Positions 27,664 through 47,424 of a stretch of 64,000 nucleotides of DNA are shown in pieces. A model generated the notes under the pieces. That model searched no databases and was not told the DNA's origin. It was given only the letters and a program-made list of their open reading frames with translations. A program made the translations under genes and the position numbers. Origin of the DNA: Pseudosulfitobacter pseudonitzschiae (GTDB lineage Bacteria; Pseudomonadota; Alphaproteobacteria; Rhodobacterales; Rhodobacteraceae); assembly GCF_900129395.1 (NCBI RefSeq), contig NZ_FQVP01000010.1, forward strand, positions 1 through 64,000, given 5' to 3'. The stretch's first letter is position 1, and the number at the start of each line of letters is the position of its first letter.

Positions 27664-28620
27664 TTACCCTCCGAGTGCGAGAAGTTTGATCTCCCCCTGC
27701 CAATGTTGTGAAAGCCGCTCCGCCGCCTGCCAGGCGCGAAGGCCCGACCGACAGGCCAGAACGGCGCGTTGGGTGTCGTGTGGTGTGGGGCCGTCTGGTC
27801 CAAAATCGGATACGGCATGGCGTGTGGCGCGCGGCAGGTCCGGGCCAGGCTCTCCCTGAGAGCGCAGGTCGATCAGAAAATCGGCTCCGGTGATGTCGCA
27901 GGGTGCAATAAAGGCCGGGCTGGGCGCGGGATCGACGGCTGTGTCAAAGCGGAACCCGCCGAACCGTAGCGTGGCGGCATCGTAGCTCACAAGCTGACCC
28001 AAGCCGCGCATGTCGCCCGTCAGGACCGCCATCGCCATTTGCGCTTGAAGGCTGCCGATCACGCCGACGCTCGGCCCCAGCACACCATCCGTGTCGCAAG
28101 ATCCAAGTTGGTCCGGCAGATCCGGAAACACCGCGCGCAAGCCCGGTTTGCCGCCACAAAAGCCGCCGACATAGCCGTCGCGCCCCACCACGCTGGCGCA
28201 GATCAGCGGCTGGCCCGTGCCAAGGCAATGATCGGACGCGATATAGCTCACCGCAAAGCTGTCCGCACAATCAAGAACCAGCGTCATGCCTTTAGACAGC
28301 GCCGCAATATTGGCCGGGTCGACGCGATGGTGAACTGGTTCAATGGTGGTGTCAGGGTTCAATGCGGCCATCGCGGTGGCAATCACGTCGACCTTGGGCC
28401 GACCAATATCCGCCTCGCGAAACAGCGTCTGGCGGTGCAGGTTGGACAGGCTAACCACATCTGCATCCGCAATTCGAATATGCCCGACCCCACCGCCCAC
28501 GAGGTATTGCATCACAGGGGCGGCCAGACCGCCACCGCCAATCACAAGCACCGAAGCGCTGGCAAGACGCGCCTGCGCGCCATTTCCCAGGACAGCCGTT
28601 TGGCGGGCGTAGCGGCTCAT
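27664..28620 (-). CDS. thiF: ThiF/MoeB-family adenylyltransferase with rhodanese-like tail
   Basis: 318 aa. Adenylates the C-terminus of the sulfur carrier ThiS. Seen: [17 protein letters not shown] (ATP-binding), [14 protein letters not shown], and a C-terminal rhodanese-like segment ([26 protein letters not shown]) whose cysteine in ACRSG could carry sulfur. The CxxC zinc pairs of some MoeB proteins are not evident. It overlaps thiE by 4 bp. Confidence 0.88.
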
Positions 28621-40582: not shown

Positions 40583-42283
40583 ATGTTTGAGGTTGAATTT
40601 CAGATGGCTGAGACAAATGCTGCTTCGAACTTGGTAGAAACTGGAAATGGGCTGTCTGGTCAAACTCTGCTTGCAAAGCACCAGAGCAACGAACTCTTTG
40701 TCGCTATAGTAGGTCCAGCCGGTGCTGGATCTGGAACCGCTGCTAAACGCATCCAGTCTTTCTTTGAAGATGACTATCAATATGAGGCGGTGATCATCAA
40801 AGCCAGTTTGCTCATACACGATGCAGCGTTGAGCTTTGGCTTGGAAGTTCCAGAAAACGGAGCCAGGAAGAGCCTTGAGAGCATCACCAAAATGCAAGAC
40901 CGAGGAGATGACCTAAGAAAAGGAAATTACTCTGGAGGGACGGAAGATCATTCCGCGGTCGCCCGGTACATTCTGAAGAAGATCACCAGCGAAAGAGCGA
41001 GGATGCAGAAGGTGGAGGGCGCCTTAGAAGGTGGGGTCGAACCCGACGGGCGTAAACGCGTCTACATTATCGACTCCCTTCGTCACCCTGCGGAAGCGAA
41101 CCTCTTGCGTAGAGTATACCAGGACGCGTTTGCGTTGGTTGGGATCGTTTGCGACCCAGTGGTGCGCGAAAAACGAATCCGAGAGAACCTATTTGATCGC
41201 GCTGAGTGGGGCTCCACCGAGACGAAGGAGAGTGTTCGTCTTTTCCTCGAGAGGGATGAAGACGCACCAGAAAAATTTGGACAGCATGTGTCTGACACAT
41301 TTCATGAAGCTGATTTCTTTGTGGATAACTCCGCTGCTGGGGAGGACGATCTCAGCATCACTGGGATGAATGACCAATTGAAGCGGTTCGTCTCCTTGAT
41401 CGCGCAGGACCGCATCGTAAGGCCGACCATCGCAGAAACAGCTATGCACCATGCGAGAAGCGCTCAAATGAGAAGCGCGTGCCTTTCAAGACAGGTGGGT
41501 GCAGCCCTCGTTAACCAATCTGGAACTATTGTCTCCACAGGCACGAACGAAGCGCCTAAAGCAGGCGGAGGAGTCTACGGGGAAGATTTTGAGCCGTCGC
41601 ACCACAGCGATCATAGATGCGCTTTCAGAGAAACCGTGTTCTGCAGCAGTAACAAAGAGCAAAATCAAATTATCGAGGAGCTGATAGACGCATTTCCTGA
41701 ACTGACCTCGTCAGCAACCAGGGGTGACGTTTTGAAAAAAATCCGTGGTACGCGACTGGGAGGATTGATTGAATTCAGCCGGGCTGTGCACGCTGAAATG
41801 GATGCCATCCTTTCAGCCTCGCTAGCAGGGGTATCACCGAAAGGCTGTAGACTGTTTGTAACAACCTATCCTTGTCACTACTGTGCGCGCCACATTGTGG
41901 CGGCGGGCATTGATGAGGTTCAGTTCATTGAACCGTACCCAAAGAGTCGAGCTACGGCCCTTCACTCCGATGCAATCACCACAGAGTCCGACGATTGGGT
42001 GGCGCCCTCTGCGATCGAGAGCAGGCAAGTTCGTGGGCAAGCTGGGTTGCCGAGCGACGATGTCGCTCGATCAGAAGCGACATCAAAGGTACTTTTTAAG
42101 CCTTTTGTAGGTGTCTCTCCCCGAATGTATCGGCGAGTTTTCTTGAAAGACAGAGACTACAAAGATAAGATCACAGGCGAGCGACTAGGCGGGTCACCAG
42201 CTTGGGGCGGGCCGTTGGACAACTATAAAGTCTCGTACGTGACATTGGAGAGCAGATTGGGTCGAGAAGTGTCAGATGCGTAG
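40583..42283 (+). CDS. anti-phage dCTP deaminase-like protein (P-loop + deaminase)
   Basis: 566 aa. The N-terminal P-loop domain has GPAGAGSGT (44-52); the C-terminal cytidine/deoxycytidylate deaminase domain has H403-A-E405 and P-C-H-Y-C (C431, C434) as zinc-binding and catalytic residues. This two-domain architecture is that of the phage-defence dCTP deaminases (AvcD-type), which deplete dCTP/dCMP pools during infection. Start by AAAAGG upstream of ATG 40583; ATG 40604 is possible. G+C is clearly lower than in the plasmid backbone, suggesting transfer. It overlaps the next gene by 8 bp. Confidence 0.85.
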   Translation: MFEVEFQMAETNAASNLVETGNGLSGQTLLAKHQSNELFVAIVGPAGAGSGTAAKRIQSFFEDDYQYEAVIIKASLLIHDAALSFGLEVPENGARKSLESITKMQDRGDDLRKGNYSGGTEDHSAVARYILKKITSERARMQKVEGALEGGVEPDGRKRVYIIDSLRHPAEANLLRRVYQDAFALVGIVCDPVVREKRIRENLFDRAEWGSTETKESVRLFLERDEDAPEKFGQHVSDTFHEADFFVDNSAAGEDDLSITGMNDQLKRFVSLIAQDRIVRPTIAETAMHHARSAQMRSACLSRQVGAALVNQSGTIVSTGTNEAPKAGGGVYGEDFEPSHHSDHRCAFRETVFCSSNKEQNQIIEELIDAFPELTSSATRGDVLKKIRGTRLGGLIEFSRAVHAEMDAILSASLAGVSPKGCRLFVTTYPCHYCARHIVAAGIDEVQFIEPYPKSRATALHSDAITTESDDWVAPSAIESRQVRGQAGLPSDDVARSEATSKVLFKPFVGVSPRMYRRVFLKDRDYKDKITGERLGGSPAWGGPLDNYKVSYVTLESRLGREVSDA

Positions 42284-42794
42284 AGCGAACCTAACGCTCG
42301 TTCACGACGCATCCGAGGGTGAGGATGTTTCGCAGTCACGCGAACAATGGAGTTTTGAGAACGCCAAACAGTTGAGTCTGTTTGACGATTTCGAGCGCGA
42401 TTACTTGTTCGTTGTACCTATGAGTGAGATGGATTATTTCGGTTTTTCAAATCTGCTTGCCAACCAAAAACCAGTATCAATCATCGATACTCGAAAATAT
42501 CCTGATTTTTTCGGACTTTATAAATCTACCAAATCCGCATTAGATCATTTTAAAATGTCGCGAGTTGAGTACGTACATGCACCAGTAAGTTGGATAGCTC
42601 ATCGTGAGTCTGTAAACACTTGGACAGTTCGTTCGACACTGATTGAAGGCTTGTCGCGTGCTAAGAGTGTTTCAGTCCTTCATGGCCGATCATTTTTGCT
42701 CTTGATCTCCACAGACGAAATGAAGGTTTCTTGCACGGAAACATTTGCATCACTGCCCGACTTCGAAGATCATTGGCAACTGCAAGCTCTTTAA
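42276..42794 (+). CDS. unknown partner of the dCTP deaminase
   Basis: 172 aa (MRRANLTLVHDASEGEDVSQ at the N-terminus), low G+C. Its start overlaps the deaminase stop by 8 bp, so the two are translationally coupled. The central part (PVSIIDTRKYPDFFGLYKST, then VEYVHAPVSW) faintly resembles DUF488-like folds (a Val-Asp-x-Arg strand), but I do not regard this as an identification. Its tight coupling suggests a role in controlling or extending the deaminase defence. Confidence 0.65.
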   Translation: MRRANLTLVHDASEGEDVSQSREQWSFENAKQLSLFDDFERDYLFVVPMSEMDYFGFSNLLANQKPVSIIDTRKYPDFFGLYKSTKSALDHFKMSRVEYVHAPVSWIAHRESVNTWTVRSTLIEGLSRAKSVSVLHGRSFLLLISTDEMKVSCTETFASLPDFEDHWQLQAL

Positions 42795-42796
42795 GT

Positions 42797-43159
42797 TCAT
42801 CGTCCTCCACATTTGCTGTCGCGGCACCAGACCACATCGCCTTTCTTAAACCAGTAATGCGCTTTGCAGGCATTCCTTTGATGGATTGACGGCGACAAAG
42901 ACGCCCGACCAATCCAATCATAGGTGATGGTCCAACGTGGTGTGTGCTGTCTCATCATCGGCAGGCGCATGACATGCCCACAGGCTCCAGGACAGGACAG
43001 AACAGCCCATTTTGGGTTTTGTTTTGGGCCGACCACGTAGAGAGATGCGGGGTCCATGTCTGTAAGAGCGGGTTGTACGTCGACATGACGGATTTCAAAC
43101 TCTGGTTTGTCAACCAACCGGCACGTAATCAGCGCGCGACGGAAAACCTCTTTCCACAT
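42797..43159 (-). CDS. DUF6527-type protein
   Basis: About 120 aa from ATG 43159, one base after the JAB-E1 stop; a TTG at 43177 would add six residues. It contains a zinc-ribbon-like pattern: CPGACG, then NACKAHYWF and VVWCRDSKC. It resembles DUF6527 proteins that accompany bacterial ubiquitin-like (multi-ubiquitin) operons; the family assignment is from memory of the pattern and gene context. Function unknown. Last gene of the three-gene operon, converging with the deaminase unit. Confidence 0.65.
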   Translation of the reverse strand: MWKEVFRRALITCRLVDKPEFEIRHVDVQPALTDMDPASLYVVGPKQNPKWAVLSCPGACGHVMRLPMMRQHTPRWTITYDWIGRASLSPSIHQRNACKAHYWFKKGDVVWCRDSKCGGR

Positions 43160-43160
43160 A

Positions 43161-44552
43161 TCAAGACACCCGATCAAGAAACGGTGTTACATCTCCAAGA
43201 CCCCAGCACTCGATCTCGCTGCAGATTGGGCAATCCGGATCTGTTTTAGCGCCAGTCCGGCGGTCTTCGGGTACCTGAAACCGGCGTAATCTTTGGGTGA
43301 CAACGCCACCGTCGCCTCTAAAACCGGTCATCAACTGAAGGAGTTCTTCCATCGCCAGGGTCGCGACCGAAGTAGTCATAGAGATGAAGGCCGGCTCCGG
43401 ATCACCACCACCAAGAATGTAGCCCTCGTTCACCTGGAATGCGTAAGCCTCGGGATCCTTCGCGCGCAGCTCTTCTTCTCTCGCCCTCCGCGGATCGACG
43501 ATATTGCGGCACAACAAGCATGGGCTGCCCGGCCCCAGGCGCGTGACCCGACCGGTCATGTCTTTGACATCCACCTCACCCCGTTCGATGGCGAGCCCAA
43601 TATCAATGACGGGTAATTCATAAAAGTAGGCAAAGCGGTTGAGCAACAGCCGACTTGCGTGATCATCCGTGCAACAGAATATCACGTCTGCGCTTTTAAG
43701 GAGATCACGATGCGCGACATCCAAAAGGTTGCCTTGGATGCCAAGGGCGTTTGTATCCAGACCAAAACCGTTGAGATGCGCTGCGAGGACCGTCGCCTTG
43801 GGGGATCCGATATCCTTGACTGTCGCACCATAGAGGCGATGAAGGTTGGTCTCCTCAATTACATCCGGGTCCAAAATGACCGGCGACTGAACACCGGAGC
43901 GCGCCAACATGACCGAAAGAGGTGAGCCCGTACCACCAGCACCGACAATGAGCACCTTGAGCGATTGGAGCTGGGCATTAAACCCAGGGCCAAAAACCCG
44001 AGTTTGACGGTCCAATGCCTGCGTCTCCAGGATATCATCCTCATGAACGAAGCACTTGCGAAGCCTGTGGCCTGTGATGGTGACGGTTGCGGGATAAGAT
44101 GTATCGGGGTCAGTCCAGACACGCGCAAGCAACCGACCTGATGGCAAGGCCAGTAAGCTGACAAATGCACGCCCGGGTCCGCTTTTGTTGCGATGCGCGC
44201 GGCTGAGCGCAGCTTCGTTTTGATCATCCCGGCTCGAGAAGGCAGCATATCCACTTGGATGGCCATGCAAGAACCCGGGCACCAACTCGTCGAGCTGTGC
44301 CTGACCCAGAACTTTGACAAAGGAGCCAGTCTTGACCGTCAGATGCTTTTCTGACGAGGAGACGACATCGGTTTGCATGAGCGGCACGACCTTGTTCAGG
44401 ATATACCGGCGCGTGGCACGGCCTGTAACAGGATCACAATCAACATGGGCAACTCTGAAGAGAGTCCAGGCCCCTGCCTCCTTTTGTCCGTCGAAAGCTG
44501 TACTTTGGATCGTGTCGAGAAGGCGATGCGGTACGATGAGGTTAAAATCCAT
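43161..44552 (-). CDS. JAB deubiquitinase-like / E1 ThiF fusion
   Basis: About 463 aa from ATG 44552. The N-terminal part has a JAMM metalloprotease motif: H96-G-H98-P-S-G, then S106-x-x-D109. The C-terminal part is an E1-like adenylyltransferase: GAGGTGS (204-210), NLHRLYG (236-242), CTDDHAS, and zinc-type CLLC (345-348) and CPIC (441-444). One polypeptide could therefore process the Ubl C-terminus and activate it. Start overlaps the stop of the Ubl-E2 gene by one base (TGATG). Fusion of JAB and E1 domains occurs in prokaryotic Ub-like systems. Confidence 0.83.
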   Translation of the reverse strand: MDFNLIVPHRLLDTIQSTAFDGQKEAGAWTLFRVAHVDCDPVTGRATRRYILNKVVPLMQTDVVSSSEKHLTVKTGSFVKVLGQAQLDELVPGFLHGHPSGYAAFSSRDDQNEAALSRAHRNKSGPGRAFVSLLALPSGRLLARVWTDPDTSYPATVTITGHRLRKCFVHEDDILETQALDRQTRVFGPGFNAQLQSLKVLIVGAGGTGSPLSVMLARSGVQSPVILDPDVIEETNLHRLYGATVKDIGSPKATVLAAHLNGFGLDTNALGIQGNLLDVAHRDLLKSADVIFCCTDDHASRLLLNRFAYFYELPVIDIGLAIERGEVDVKDMTGRVTRLGPGSPCLLCRNIVDPRRAREEELRAKDPEAYAFQVNEGYILGGGDPEPAFISMTTSVATLAMEELLQLMTGFRGDGGVVTQRLRRFQVPEDRRTGAKTDPDCPICSEIECWGLGDVTPFLDRVS

Positions 44553-45454
44553 CACGCGGCCTCCGCGATCGCACGCTCGACGCGCTTGACCATCGTCCAG
44601 ATACCGTCTTTGCCTGAACGCCATTGTGAGTTGTGACGGGACCAGCGCTGCCAGTTGGTTCCACCGAAAACATGGGGGACGTCTGCACATTTTGGGAATG
44701 CGCCACTGGCCTTCAATCTCATCCACGGACTGCAGTAAAACATGTCCGGCGCAGTGTCGGGGTACCCGCTCGGCATCAGGATCAAAATGTCGACGCTGTC
44801 GGCGTCAAACTTGCCCGCAGGTAAGGGGTAGTTTTTCAAAATGACACCGGTTTGGCCACGGTCACTCATCTCGGCAAACGTTGCCAGACTTGAGGCAAGG
44901 TAGCTTTTGTCGCGGCGGGGAAGGACCCCGCCGGACGAAGCGTCACCAGCTGTTGTTTGTTCGATGACCGTAAAGAAGCGTTCCAGACCATCATCACTCA
45001 GATCGATGATCTGATCGTTGTTGATCGGAACGTCCTCACCGCCGCGAACCTCCTGCCAGAGAGCATATGTCGCCGGATCAACACCTGCGAGTTCTTTGAG
45101 CTTCAGGCCTGTGATCAGCTTTGTGCCCCATTCGATCCGCTGACCGTCGATCTCCAGACGGTAGGAAGCGGAGCTCTCGAAGGTCAAAAACCGCTCGGTT
45201 CCGCGACGGGTAAGATCAATGGTTTCATCAAGCTGGATTTCTTCAAATCGACCACCGCGCAGGATCAAAAAGATGAGATACTCATCGGTTGGGCGTTTGT
45301 CGGCGAGCGCCAGTAGTTGGCGACCCGTCGGTTTGGGATCTTCGATGTTGTAGCGGTCGTGATCGATCCGAACGCGGAAACGTGTTGCGGTTGGCTCATG
45401 GCGATCCTCAAGCGCGCAGCTCTCAAGATCAATAAAGTCATTTTGTGCGGACAT
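44552..45454 (-). CDS. multi-ubiquitin-domain / E2-like fusion
   Basis: About 300 aa from ATG 45454. Two tandem ubiquitin-like repeats (about 24-93 and 97-165; both end in the shared GTERFLTFE / GLERFFTVIE pattern), then an E2/UBC-like domain (about 178-300) with ILMPSGYPDTAPDMFYC and FGGTNWQRWSRHN. C241 and C256 are candidate catalytic cysteines. No terminal Gly-Gly ends the protein, so the Ubl may be used in cis or after processing. Upstream gene of the operon; its ribosome site lies in a predicted hairpin (45465-45507). Confidence 0.82.
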   Translation of the reverse strand: MSAQNDFIDLESCALEDRHEPTATRFRVRIDHDRYNIEDPKPTGRQLLALADKRPTDEYLIFLILRGGRFEEIQLDETIDLTRRGTERFLTFESSASYRLEIDGQRIEWGTKLITGLKLKELAGVDPATYALWQEVRGGEDVPINNDQIIDLSDDGLERFFTVIEQTTAGDASSGGVLPRRDKSYLASSLATFAEMSDRGQTGVILKNYPLPAGKFDADSVDILILMPSGYPDTAPDMFYCSPWMRLKASGAFPKCADVPHVFGGTNWQRWSRHNSQWRSGKDGIWTMVKRVERAIAEAA

Positions 45455-45464
45455 GACAGTGTCT

Positions 45465-45507
45465 CCTTTGTAGATGTCGTGGTGTTTACTGTTCGCACCT
45501 ACAAAGG
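45465..45507 (-). promoter_or_regulatory. Shine-Dalgarno-sequestering hairpin of the Ubl-E2 gene
   Basis: Perfect 9-bp inverted repeat CCTTTGTAG (45465-45473) / CTACAAAGG (45499-45507). In the minus-strand transcript the 3' arm includes the AAAGG of the AAAGGAG ribosome site for ATG 45454, so the folded form would hide it. This suggests post-transcriptional gating of the ubiquitin-like operon. Confidence 0.6.
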
Positions 45508-45617
45508 CTTGTGGTAGATGAGGTTTCGGACACCTGAAAAAAATATTTGAACCTGTCTGAATCACGTCGGTTGAAGCGCCTTGATTCATGCTGCTGCTTT
45601 GATTGGAGGGCACGAAA

Positions 45618-46205
45618 TTGGGGGCACATGAGCCTGTGACATATAAAGAGCCGGAAGAGCTTTATGATGAGTACTTGGCTTTGTCTCCCCGAGACAAAAA
45701 ACGCCTGACGCTTGTCGCAAAGAAATATGCGGCTTTTACCAAAGACCTGGAACCTGAGGACCTGATCCAGGAGGCCCTCATGAAGGTGTTTGAAGAAAAG
45801 CGCAGTTGTAAATCAGACTTGGACGTTTTCACGTTTTTGGCAGGTGCGATGCGTTCGCTTGCCAATAATCAAATAGAGATGCGCGCGCGTCGGCGTGACG
45901 CAAATATGTTGGAGGTACAGCATGCCAAATACGATCTACTCACTGAACACAGATCAAACCCAGACCACCTGAATGGGGAAGAAACCATTATTGATGAAGA
46001 AACGGAACGTGCGTTCCAGGACTTCCTCCTTGAGGCCTGCAATGGCTGTGAAAAAACCCAGCTCGTTTTGCTGGGCGGGTTTGATGGCCTGCGGGGCACG
46101 GACCTTTGTGAAACCGCAGGCGTGTCTAAACAGGAGCTTGCGACCATTCATCGGCGCATTGGGCGCATGATGGACAGATTTAAGAGAGAAAGGAGTGTGT
46201 CATGA
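45618..46205 (+). CDS. ECF-like RNA polymerase sigma factor
   Basis: About 195 aa from TTG 45618, seven bases after GGAGGG (45605-45610). Sigma-70 region 2 pattern (DLEPEDLIQEALMKVFEE, then FTFLAGAMRSLANNQIEMRA) and a C-terminal region-4-like HTH (GLRGTDLCETAGVSKQELAT). It is divergent from the Ubl operon with 163 bp between starts and heads a three-gene operon with 4-bp overlaps. It may direct transcription of one or both operons. Confidence 0.78.
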   Translation: MGAHEPVTYKEPEELYDEYLALSPRDKKRLTLVAKKYAAFTKDLEPEDLIQEALMKVFEEKRSCKSDLDVFTFLAGAMRSLANNQIEMRARRRDANMLEVQHAKYDLLTEHRSNPDHLNGEETIIDEETERAFQDFLLEACNGCEKTQLVLLGGFDGLRGTDLCETAGVSKQELATIHRRIGRMMDRFKRERSVS

Positions 46206-46618
46206 CAAAGAAGTCCAAGAGAGATGAGCTTTTCGATCTTGCTGACAATGTTGTCGATACAATCCTGAACATGTCGGACGAAGAGTTGGACGCCGAACTT
46301 GAACGGGAGGGTATCGCACCCGAAGATGCCGTCAAAGCCTTTGACAGTCTTGTCGATAGCGCGCGGATGAAGGCCGGACAAAAATCACTTCTGCGCGCGC
46401 GCGAAGAACTGGTCGCAGATAAACGATCAGCGCGCAGCTGCCGTCCGCGGTCGGCAGCGGAAGCGCGAGCGTTGGTTGAGCGTGCGGCAAAAGAACATCC
46501 ACAAATGACCCAAGCTGCAAGAAACGCGCAAAGCGGCGCTATGTCTGATAGTGATGTCTTTGATCTATTGGACGATCTTGAAGAGCTCGGATTCTCCTTC
46601 GGAGATGCAGAAACGTGA
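46202..46618 (+). CDS. helical protein of unknown function
   Basis: 138 aa, charged and predicted mostly helical (DELFDLADNVVDTILNMSDE near the N-terminus; VFDLLDDLEELGFSF near the end). Overlaps the sigma factor and the peptidase genes by 4 bp each. A plausible anti-sigma or adaptor protein cleaved by the downstream metallopeptidase, as in ImmA/ImmR-type switches; this is inference. Confidence 0.65.
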   Translation: MTKKSKRDELFDLADNVVDTILNMSDEELDAELEREGIAPEDAVKAFDSLVDSARMKAGQKSLLRAREELVADKRSARSCRPRSAAEARALVERAAKEHPQMTQAARNAQSGAMSDSDVFDLLDDLEELGFSFGDAET

Positions 46619-47424
46619 GGCGGCTTTCGCATGCAGAGCAGTATTTGATTGACTACGGGGTAACGAAACCGCGTCACATCGATCTGGAAGCTCTGGCGTG
46701 GACGATGGGGGCTAAGGTCAAGTACAAACGCTTGTCGTCTTGCGAAGCGAAGATTACCGGGCTTGGAGATCGCGCCATTATCACGATTGATGACAGCTCT
46801 GGCGACCGCCGTGCGCGGTTTTCACTCTCTCACGAGATCGGGCATTGGCAACGCCACAGAAACCAGATTCTGAGTTGTTCAAAGCAGGATATTGGTGGGG
46901 TAAATGGCCAGGGGGCGCATAAGGAGCGGGAGGCAGATCGTTATGCTGCGGACTTTATGATGCCCGCCTATCTGTATCGGCCGCTGATGCGTGAGTTCAA
47001 AAAGCCATCGTTCAAGTCGATTGACGCGTTGGCAGAGGAGTTCCAGGCAAGCCGCAAAGCCTCGGCACTACGCTATATCGATGTGGACAGATCTGAATCG
47101 ATGTTAATCTGTTTTGGGCCCAATGGACGCAAATGGTTTCGCGGCTCAAAGGATTGGCCGGACGAATGGGCACCCAAGCGTGACCACGACCCCGATAGCG
47201 GGGTTATGGAGTTATTGTTTGGGAAAACAACGCCGGGCGCGGATCGCTCTTTGGTGCCTGCAAGTGCGTTTTTTGGCCGGTACAGCGCAGAAAACCACAA
47301 TGTTTACGCACATTCCGTGATCTCGCGATCCCGCGGCGGCCAAACCGACGCAGAGGTTATGACTTTCATCGTTCCTCAAAACTCTGACATGTTTGATGAT
47401 GTCTATGCTTCTCGAGGTTGGTAA
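46615..47424 (+). CDS. ImmA/IrrE-family metallopeptidase
   Basis: 269 aa. Zinc-protease motif H73-E-I-G-H77 (LSHEIGHWQRH) with the downstream glutamate in KEREADRYAADFMMP. Relatives cleave regulators such as ImmR or DdrO. The C-terminal half (from about residue 160) is unassigned. As the last gene in the sigma-factor operon it probably acts on a partner of that operon or of the Ubl system. Confidence 0.82.
   Translation: MRRLSHAEQYLIDYGVTKPRHIDLEALAWTMGAKVKYKRLSSCEAKITGLGDRAIITIDDSSGDRRARFSLSHEIGHWQRHRNQILSCSKQDIGGVNGQGAHKEREADRYAADFMMPAYLYRPLMREFKKPSFKSIDALAEEFQASRKASALRYIDVDRSESMLICFGPNGRKWFRGSKDWPDEWAPKRDHDPDSGVMELLFGKTTPGADRSLVPASAFFGRYSAENHNVYAHSVISRSRGGQTDAEVMTFIVPQNSDMFDDVYASRGW

Follow-up and report, generated by a model that had tools for sequence, protein, structure and literature searches.

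How is a bacterial ubiquitin-like (Ubl) conjugation operon switched on, and what part might be played by a sigma factor gene that faces away from it? The question is raised by a 64,000-nt stretch of DNA from the marine bacterium Pseudosulfitobacter pseudonitzschiae (this whole stretch is called the window below), in which two divergent operons occupy positions 42797-47424 (Table 1). One encodes, in three proteins, a multi-Ubl-E2 fusion, a JAB-E1 fusion and a DUF6527 protein, and the other encodes an extracytoplasmic function (ECF)-type sigma factor, a helical protein of 138 aa and an M78 metallopeptidase. Bacterial ubiquitination-like (Bub) operons consist of Ubl, E2, E1 and JAB genes, and in the window all four lie within one operon (JAB under the Pfam cut-off, with its motif intact). 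All six genes had been named in an initial annotation of this DNA and are indeed present, and the 4-bp overlaps that it reported at the sigma/138-aa and 138-aa/peptidase joints hold.

Having compared the locus with related loci (labelled L and a number), we judge it probable that the genes for the sigma factor, the 138-aa-family protein and the M78 peptidase (together, the triad) form a portable, self-amplifying controller of neighbouring operons, in which the peptidase would cut an anti-sigma factor at an A-x-R motif and the sigma factor would fire two promoters, one facing each operon. At the level of sequence, the triad is conserved, its payloads are exchanged, its promoters are paired, its peptidase keeps catalytic and switch-type residues, and the A-x-R motif is associated with the peptidase. 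The initial annotation had already suggested that the peptidase cuts an anti-sigma factor and that the sigma factor then turns on the Ubl operon. This is still the best reading, and it has gained comparative support from the shared divergent promoter pair with its co-varying halves, the CapP class of the peptidase, and the tie between A-x-R and the peptidase. The accompanying idea of a single composite system is not supported, as 23 of 32 triads face payloads other than Ubl operons, and 14 of the 20 genomes of the order with a Multi_ubiq protein lack a sigma factor of this type.

The triad is a unit with exchangeable payloads

Among all loci fetched, 47 distinct loci have a match to the sigma factor (L012 and L070 were omitted as copies of the window and L021); by profile, the full triad is found in 32 and not in 15. 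When plasmids were searched with the window sigma factor by tblastn, 12 records were returned; all seven that were examined bear the triad, one being a copy of the window, and the other five are further Cereibacter records. A second sigma query returned 35 plasmid records, and over both queries 15 of the 21 records examined have the triad, those without it being L053, L059-L062 and L069. A sigma-profile scan of genome contigs gave at least 10 loci, every one listed with all three genes. Across 390 genomes of the order, with at most 10 candidates scored per genome, the sigma profile matched eight and the 138-aa profile five, and all five lie beside a sigma match. L065-L068 were recovered via a peptidase search, so the presence of the peptidase in these four is by selection. 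Triad loci are frequently plasmid-borne. No relative of the window sigma factor was found in viral contigs, where the peptidase profile gave 15 weak matches, and the L010 sigma factor had no match in phage records.

The 15 sigma loci outside the 32 differ in what they lack. L068 has the peptidase, together with a 138-aa-type protein that the profile missed; L074 reaches the contig edge shortly after the sigma gene; and L059-L062 have a second gene and no peptidase. Neither partner is present in L075, L076 and L078-L082, six of which are distant sigma homologues (1e-8 to 1e-6). L053 and L069, considered below, complete the set.

Ten payload classes face the 32 triads. Nine triads face a Ubl operon (window, L006, L021, L065-L067 and L071-L073), seven face only small genes (DUF2188 or unknown, with an intervening IS21 element in L058), and six face a cyclic oligonucleotide-based antiphage signalling system (CBASS). 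Bil-like E1 operons, DUF6791-E1 and DUF3892 are each found twice, and Pycsar (PycC 1e-232), E1-JAB with patatin, an OLD/Gabija-like ATPase and Beta_protein once each. The E1 match of L067 spans just 96 residues, and the class label of L026 rests on a ThiF match. CBASS and Pycsar are established defence systems; the other classes are likely or unknown ones. A check for co-occurrence of the two operons of the window thus finds them together in nine of the 32 triad loci, counting the window itself and also L071, whose Ubl operon lies at the opposite end of the same contig (L137), so that adjacency there assumes a circular contig.

On a quick tree of the controllers, the ten classes need 14 changes, where the minimum is nine and the shuffled mean is 20.4 (a value as low was seen in 0/200 shuffles), which suggests that inheritance accounts for part of the payload distribution, together with repeated exchange. 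On the tree, Ubl operons occupy three positions, of which well-supported branches force two. The same triad is found next to several kinds of anti-phage system and so has the look of a plug-in control unit, and on this comparative evidence we regard it as a portable controller and not as half of one composite system.

A pair of divergent promoters often faces the sigma operon and the payload

Among the first 19 loci, TGTCCGA-N16/17-GCATAG came to light between the divergent operons in opposite directions; the intergenic regions often have two such copies back to back, one per operon. Sites were scored as matches out of 13 against the strict consensus of these 19 discovery loci, with a threshold of at least 11/13. 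At this threshold, 13 discovery loci have the sigma-facing promoter, eight the payload-facing one and seven both (controls, 6/1900 and 0/1900 for both). Among 14 held-out triads, some of which are related to discovery loci (L021 to L006, and L022/L024 to L007/L009), nine have a promoter of the proposed type ahead of the sigma gene itself, nine have one on the payload side and six have both, compared with controls of 20/1400 on one strand and 0/1400 on both; the payload sites of L065 and L066 lie outside the 200-bp windows of the strict scoring and were counted as misses. With a widened -10 element (GCMTWK), the numbers for all 32 triads become 28 sigma-facing, 22 payload-facing and 20 both, against 44/1280 control matches on one strand and 0/1280 on both. 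Six sigma operons without the full triad by profile gave four sigma-facing and two payload-facing sites, with both in two (none in L053 or L069), and seven further sigma homologues without the triad gave no promoter matches.

The two halves also resemble each other. They agree at 16.5/23 positions within a locus and at 13.4/23 between loci (permutation p<=5e-5, 31 loci), and the spacer has equal length in both halves in 30 of 31 loci, related loci inflating both the likeness and the spacer agreement. The input was 28 triads plus L059, L061, L062 and L068; L058, L060, L067, L071 and L073 were excluded, L072 was dropped on score (leaving 31 of 32 loci), and L063 was retained with a sigma-side site that is probably mis-picked. 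In the window, the -10 element has the form GCCTT in both halves, and the window-type pattern, which was derived from these sites, occurs exactly twice in the 64 kb, both times at this locus. In the reading that we favour, the sigma factor would recognise both promoters.

A scan of the organism's own genome gave four matches to the window-type pattern, two of them at this locus, and two to a reversed control pattern. Since four matches stand against two, a wider sigma regulon was dropped as a candidate, and we claim no further targets.

Ubl operons offer a comparison between controllers. In the widened form and at the same threshold, the payload-side promoter is present in five of ten sigma-linked Ubl operons, four of which are discovery loci, and in none of 15 with another or no recognised controller; the 15 include L127 and L128, which share ~90% identity with L065/L067 in their Ubl genes. 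These results bear on whether the triad might be an independent plasmid module, for stress response or addiction, that adjoins its payloads on mobile elements by happenstance. Many triad loci are plasmid-borne, as such a module would be, and the seven triads that face small unknown genes only would suit it. We nevertheless hold it to be very unlikely: the divergent layout, often with the payload-facing promoter, is kept across payload classes, the promoter halves co-vary within a locus, and the payload-side promoter is missing from all 15 Ubl operons without the triad.

CapH-CapP and the triad front related Ubl operons

The CapH-CapP immune controller was reportedly introduced by Lau et al. 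in 2022. Around Ubl operons it appears to trade places with the triad. A Multi_ubiq protein is encoded in 20 of the 390 genomes of the order, and the sigma factor lies beside it in six, which include one case at a contig edge and one across contig ends. The Ubl loci of the other 14 genomes, plus the second locus of G082, were compared with these. The Ubl genes of L123 are 55-64% identical to those of L065/L067, and opposite them is capP (PADLOC 5e-57) with an apparent helix-turn-helix (HTH) protein, judged by eye, upstream. The L129 operon faces capH (1.5e-7) and capP, and L126, L127, L133 and L136 face M78 proteins, which are HTH-M78 proteins of the PD-Lambda-2 type where Pfam was run. In the remaining Ubl loci a controller was neither recognised nor always checked for. 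Because each fronts related Ubl payloads, CapH-CapP and the sigma triad look like alternative controllers.

The sigma factor and the CapP-like peptidase

By sequence, the window sigma factor is weak, scoring just 0.025 with Pfam Sigma70_r2 and 1e-6 with NCBIfam sigma70-ECF (28.3 bits, cut-off 42.9), both under the curated cut-offs. Its structural model (predicted local distance difference test score, pLDDT, 78; predicted template modelling score, pTM, 0.45) has as its leading Foldseek matches in the PDB sigma factors, mostly of the ECF type (SigH, SigL, SigE, AlgU). One match reaches E<=0.001 (9a4r, 7e-4), and the TM score is ~0.3 over both domains. The model thus shows the predicted sigma2-sigma4 fold of an ECF sigma factor. 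Over the 32 triads, the only invariant residues of the sigma family are E52 and A53.

The window peptidase belongs to a kind of protease that senses DNA damage. It matches PADLOC capP at 5e-49, and the best solved relative of the peptidase profile is CapP (7t5t, 1e-11), followed by IrrE. H73, E74, H77, E104, C43 and C88 are invariant in 32/32 triads, and C88 aligns with a CapP cysteine. By sequence the enzyme is of the CapP class. According to the available parts of the relevant reports, CapP has a cysteine-switch loop (PMC13273310); in VapB52, zinc is bound by two His, one Glu and one Cys, and single-stranded DNA (ssDNA) is the activator (PMC13273310); and DdrO is cut, with stimulation by ssDNA, in an Arg-containing loop (PMC10904395). 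By analogy, ssDNA may trigger the triad peptidase.

The 138-aa protein and its A-x-R motif

The 138-aa protein has no family above cut-off and no HTH or capH match, and nothing usable came from searches of Pfam, PDB sequences or PDB folds. An Ish1 match for the family was dropped, as it was below cut-off (0.0004) and seen in one of 11 members. The model is helical, with a best Foldseek match no better than E 1.5, the weak matches including DNA-binding folds. The family is very divergent, and A105 and R107 are its sole invariant residues in 32/32 triads; in the model they lie at the start of a short helix, 104-110 (mean pLDDT of the stretch, 69). A-x-R stands at the aligned place in 33/33 operons with the peptidase, among them L068, which carries LAAR, and in 0/4 without it; peptidase-less second genes of 79, 87 and 96 aa have A-x-R nowhere. 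Being tied to the presence of the peptidase, A-x-R is the probable site of cleavage or recognition, and the N-terminal part, which is kept in the short peptidase-less versions, probably binds the sigma factor.

Could the 138-aa protein instead be a CapH-like DNA-binding repressor of the intergenic region, which the peptidase removes, with the sigma factor merely assisting? CapH-CapP follows such logic (PMC13373217, in its available part), and it replaces the triad beside other Ubl operons. None of the 11 family members scanned has an HTH family at E<=0.01, the fold searches with the helical model speak against such a repressor too (DNA-binding folds are, however, among the weak matches), and the conserved intergenic DNA is promoter-like, with 16/17 spacing, and faces both ways. 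We consider a repressor of this kind unlikely.

It is, in our view, quite unlikely that the peptidase cuts the sigma factor itself, activating it or ending the response, with the 138-aa protein as an adaptor that brings the two together. The co-occurrence of the three genes in 32 loci fits this as well, and cannot separate a substrate from an adaptor because all three go together. The distribution of invariant residues argues the other way, as the sigma factor keeps just E52 and A53 whereas the only two of the helical family form A-x-R, and so do the four operons without the peptidase, where the aligned place does not hold A-x-R.

A proposed mechanism and the evidence that weighs against it

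In the mechanism that we favour, the 138-aa protein would at rest hold the sigma factor as its anti-sigma factor. The CapP-like peptidase would be activated, most likely by ssDNA from phage replication or DNA damage, which would release its cysteine switch (C88), and the active peptidase would cut the anti-sigma factor at A-x-R near the C-terminus. The freed sigma factor would then fire both back-to-back promoters, one per divergent operon, boosting its own operon (positive feedback) along with the payload, and in the window the Ubl conjugation pathway would be expressed, possibly for defence.

Several observations weigh against this mechanism. No known anti-sigma factor is related to the 138-aa family by sequence or by fold. 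The peptidase-less cases are just four, of which L060 and L062 are related and three are simply short proteins, and L061, which has A-F-K at the aligned place, carries A-x-R triplets elsewhere, including VAARR. L053 and L069 have a fairly similar sigma factor (~1e-22) followed by a helicase gene, with the 138-aa protein, the peptidase and the promoter motif all absent, and L078, a fairly close homologue (5e-22), likewise lacks partners and motif. The promoters of the window itself score 10 and 10 of 13 under the strict consensus, below the threshold, and reach 12 and 13 only with the -10 element that was widened partly to fit the clade of the window; on the payload side, L061, L067, L072, L073 and L074 (five of the ten sigma-linked Ubl operons) stay under 11/13. 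Lastly, according to the available part of PMC13373217, protection against phage had not been demonstrated for Bub operons.

Gene organization and neighbouring genes

Table 1. Features of the divergent locus (window coordinates) and of a recurrent payload-side protein.
Feature	Position	Strand	Remarks
Ubl-E2 gene (payload gene 1)	44552..45454	-	two Multi_ubiq (Ubl) domains fused to Prok-E2_E E2
JAB-E1 gene (payload gene 2)	43161..44552	-	JAB + ThiF-type E1 fusion, HxHx7SxxD intact
DUF6527 gene (payload gene 3)	42797..43159	-	DUF6527 match 2e-19
Payload-facing promoter	45501..45532	-	TGTCCGA-N17-GCCTTT, a variant of TGTCCGA-N16/17-GCATAG, ~47 bp upstream of Ubl-E2 ATG
Sigma-facing promoter	45554..45585	+	TGTCTGA-N17-GCCTTG, ~33 bp upstream of TTG 45618
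ECF-type sigma factor gene	45618..46205	+	alternative start GTG 45636
138-aa helical protein gene	46202..46618	+	putative anti-sigma factor and peptidase substrate
A105-A106-R107 of 138-aa protein	46514..46522	+	candidate cleavage or recognition motif
CapP-like M78 metallopeptidase gene	46615..47424	+	Peptidase_M78 1e-10
92-aa payload-side protein	L007:5081-5359; L008, L009, L010, L022, L023, L024, L025		

A Pseudosulfitobacter pseudonitzschiae plasmid encodes sigma, Ubl-E2 and E1 proteins that share 99.5-100% identity with those of the window. In the annotation of NZ_CP054602, a near-identical plasmid, Ubl-E2 starts at 45454 (300 aa), and not at the long open reading frame end, 45613, and E1 starts at 44552. 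The DUF6527 gene is unannotated there, and its start was placed at the ATG at 43159. The sigma gene starts either at the TTG, which has GGAGG 8 bases upstream, or at the GTG of the NZ_CP054602 annotation. The minus-strand genes are joined by one 1-bp overlap and one 1-bp gap.

The Ubl-E2 protein matches Multi_ubiq (PF14452, 4e-39) and Prok-E2_E (PF14462, 1e-45). JAB-E1 matches ThiF at 2e-38 and Prok-JAB at just 0.0014, under the Pfam cut-off, and has an unbroken set of HxHx7SxxD residues, which we take to be the JAMM motif. At the Ubl/E2 joint (slash), the three fusions compared have GG: SSGG/V (SSGG/VLPRR in the window), QSGG/A and QGGG/A. The free Ubls of related loci terminate in TTEGGAA or TTEGGAE, and the match between the GG of the joints and the place where free Ubls end suggests that the JAB domain trims the fusions there. 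With the JAMM residues intact and the GG joints kept, the Ubl payload looks able to act. Elsewhere, the single-Ubl E2 fusion of L061 (L061:4659-5330) contains zero cysteines, so that no catalytic Cys is available to its E2 part, and an IS256 transposase lies between E2 and E1 of a Celeribacter Ubl operon (L066:1933-3204).

The locus is flanked by type IV secretion genes, and the region is plasmid-like. Adjoining the Ubl operon, the stretch 40583-42794 (+) encodes an anti-phage deoxycytidine triphosphate (dCTP) deaminase (NF041025 4.5e-126, above cut-off) and, after it, a protein of 172 aa that matches no family; together with the Ubl operon they amount to a small defence island within the conjugation region. 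The segment 27664-31386 (-) holds ordinary thiamine biosynthesis genes (ThiF-like, thiamine phosphate synthase and ThiO-like) that are unrelated to the finding, and the ThiF gene at 27664-28620, which sits among them, was rejected as a second E1.

In eight triad loci whose payloads otherwise differ, CBASS included, the payload side begins with a gene for a 92-aa protein that has no Pfam match and may belong to the controller. The sigma relatives of L053 and L069 sit immediately upstream of large helicase-related genes. In the Mesorhizobium Ubl operon of L061, the sigma gene is followed by genes for proteins of 131 aa and, in place of the peptidase, 478 aa. The latter (L061:6532-7968) has no Pfam match, and its start resembles, by eye only, an Ntn-hydrolase or proteasome-type subunit; a search found no solved relative, and the proteasome-like reading was rejected.

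Relation to known controllers and implications

SigE-RseA is an ECF sigma/anti-sigma pair that is activated by proteolysis. The triad resembles such pairs in its ECF-like sigma factor, the putative inhibitor encoded by the next gene and the promoter before its own gene, and 1or7 is among the fold matches of the window sigma model. It differs in that its putative anti-sigma factor matches no known anti-sigma family, its peptidase is CapP-like and its output is a neighbouring defence-type operon.

The closest parallel is CapH-CapP (described in the available parts of PMC13373217, PMC10904395 and PMC13273310). Like it, the triad has a CapP-class M78 peptidase with HExxH, a distal Glu and a conserved Cys aligned to a CapP cysteine, and adjoins exchangeable immune operons. 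In the triad, the HTH repressor CapH is replaced by a sigma factor together with a helical protein that is not of the HTH type, and the output would be activation from a dedicated promoter pair, not derepression. CapK-CapS, a kinase with a STAS-winged HTH repressor, and CapW, a WYL repressor, are also portable regulators beside immune operons and, unlike the triad, have neither sigma factor nor peptidase, as far as the available text of PMC13373217 goes. IrrE/PprI-DdrO and VapB52 share with the triad an M78-type peptidase, activated by ssDNA in those two systems and cutting there within an Arg-containing loop or close to an 'FR' motif, whereas what is cut, in the portions of PMC10904395 and PMC13273310 consulted, is either a DNA-binding repressor or the peptidase itself and not the neighbour of a sigma factor. 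Bub operons are known to carry exchangeable controllers, with CapW or CapH-CapP in 219/544 and CapK-CapS in 59; the controller here is a sigma triad, and the accessible part of that report makes no mention of a sigma factor in this role (PMC13373217). A literature search by title and abstract start found, among the papers listed, no recognisable description of a sigma-based immune controller, and a mention within the CapH-CapP or Bub-operon reports is possible. New here, judging from the sequences, would be a sigma-based output stage and a new putative anti-sigma family on a known kind of proteolytic immune controller.

On balance we are inclined to see in these loci a mobile family of "immunity sigma factors", in which an ECF sigma factor, an anti-sigma factor of a new family and a CapP-like peptidase activated by ssDNA would make up a plug-in switch for exchangeable payloads (CBASS, Pycsar, Ubl, Bil-like, OLD-like and others) acting through a symmetrical promoter pair; it would be, in effect, CapH-CapP with a sigma/anti-sigma output stage where the repressor stood. 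CapW, CapH-CapP and CapK-CapS work by derepression (PMC13373217, available part). A sigma-based controller, if true, would add positive feedback and a searchable promoter signature, with which one could find and group defence operons of an unrecognised kind, for example those with the small or DUF3892 payloads. The model makes specific predictions, of a cleavage motif and of defined promoter halves, and, if it is true, bacterial ubiquitin-like conjugation would be coupled to a DNA-damage-type signal.

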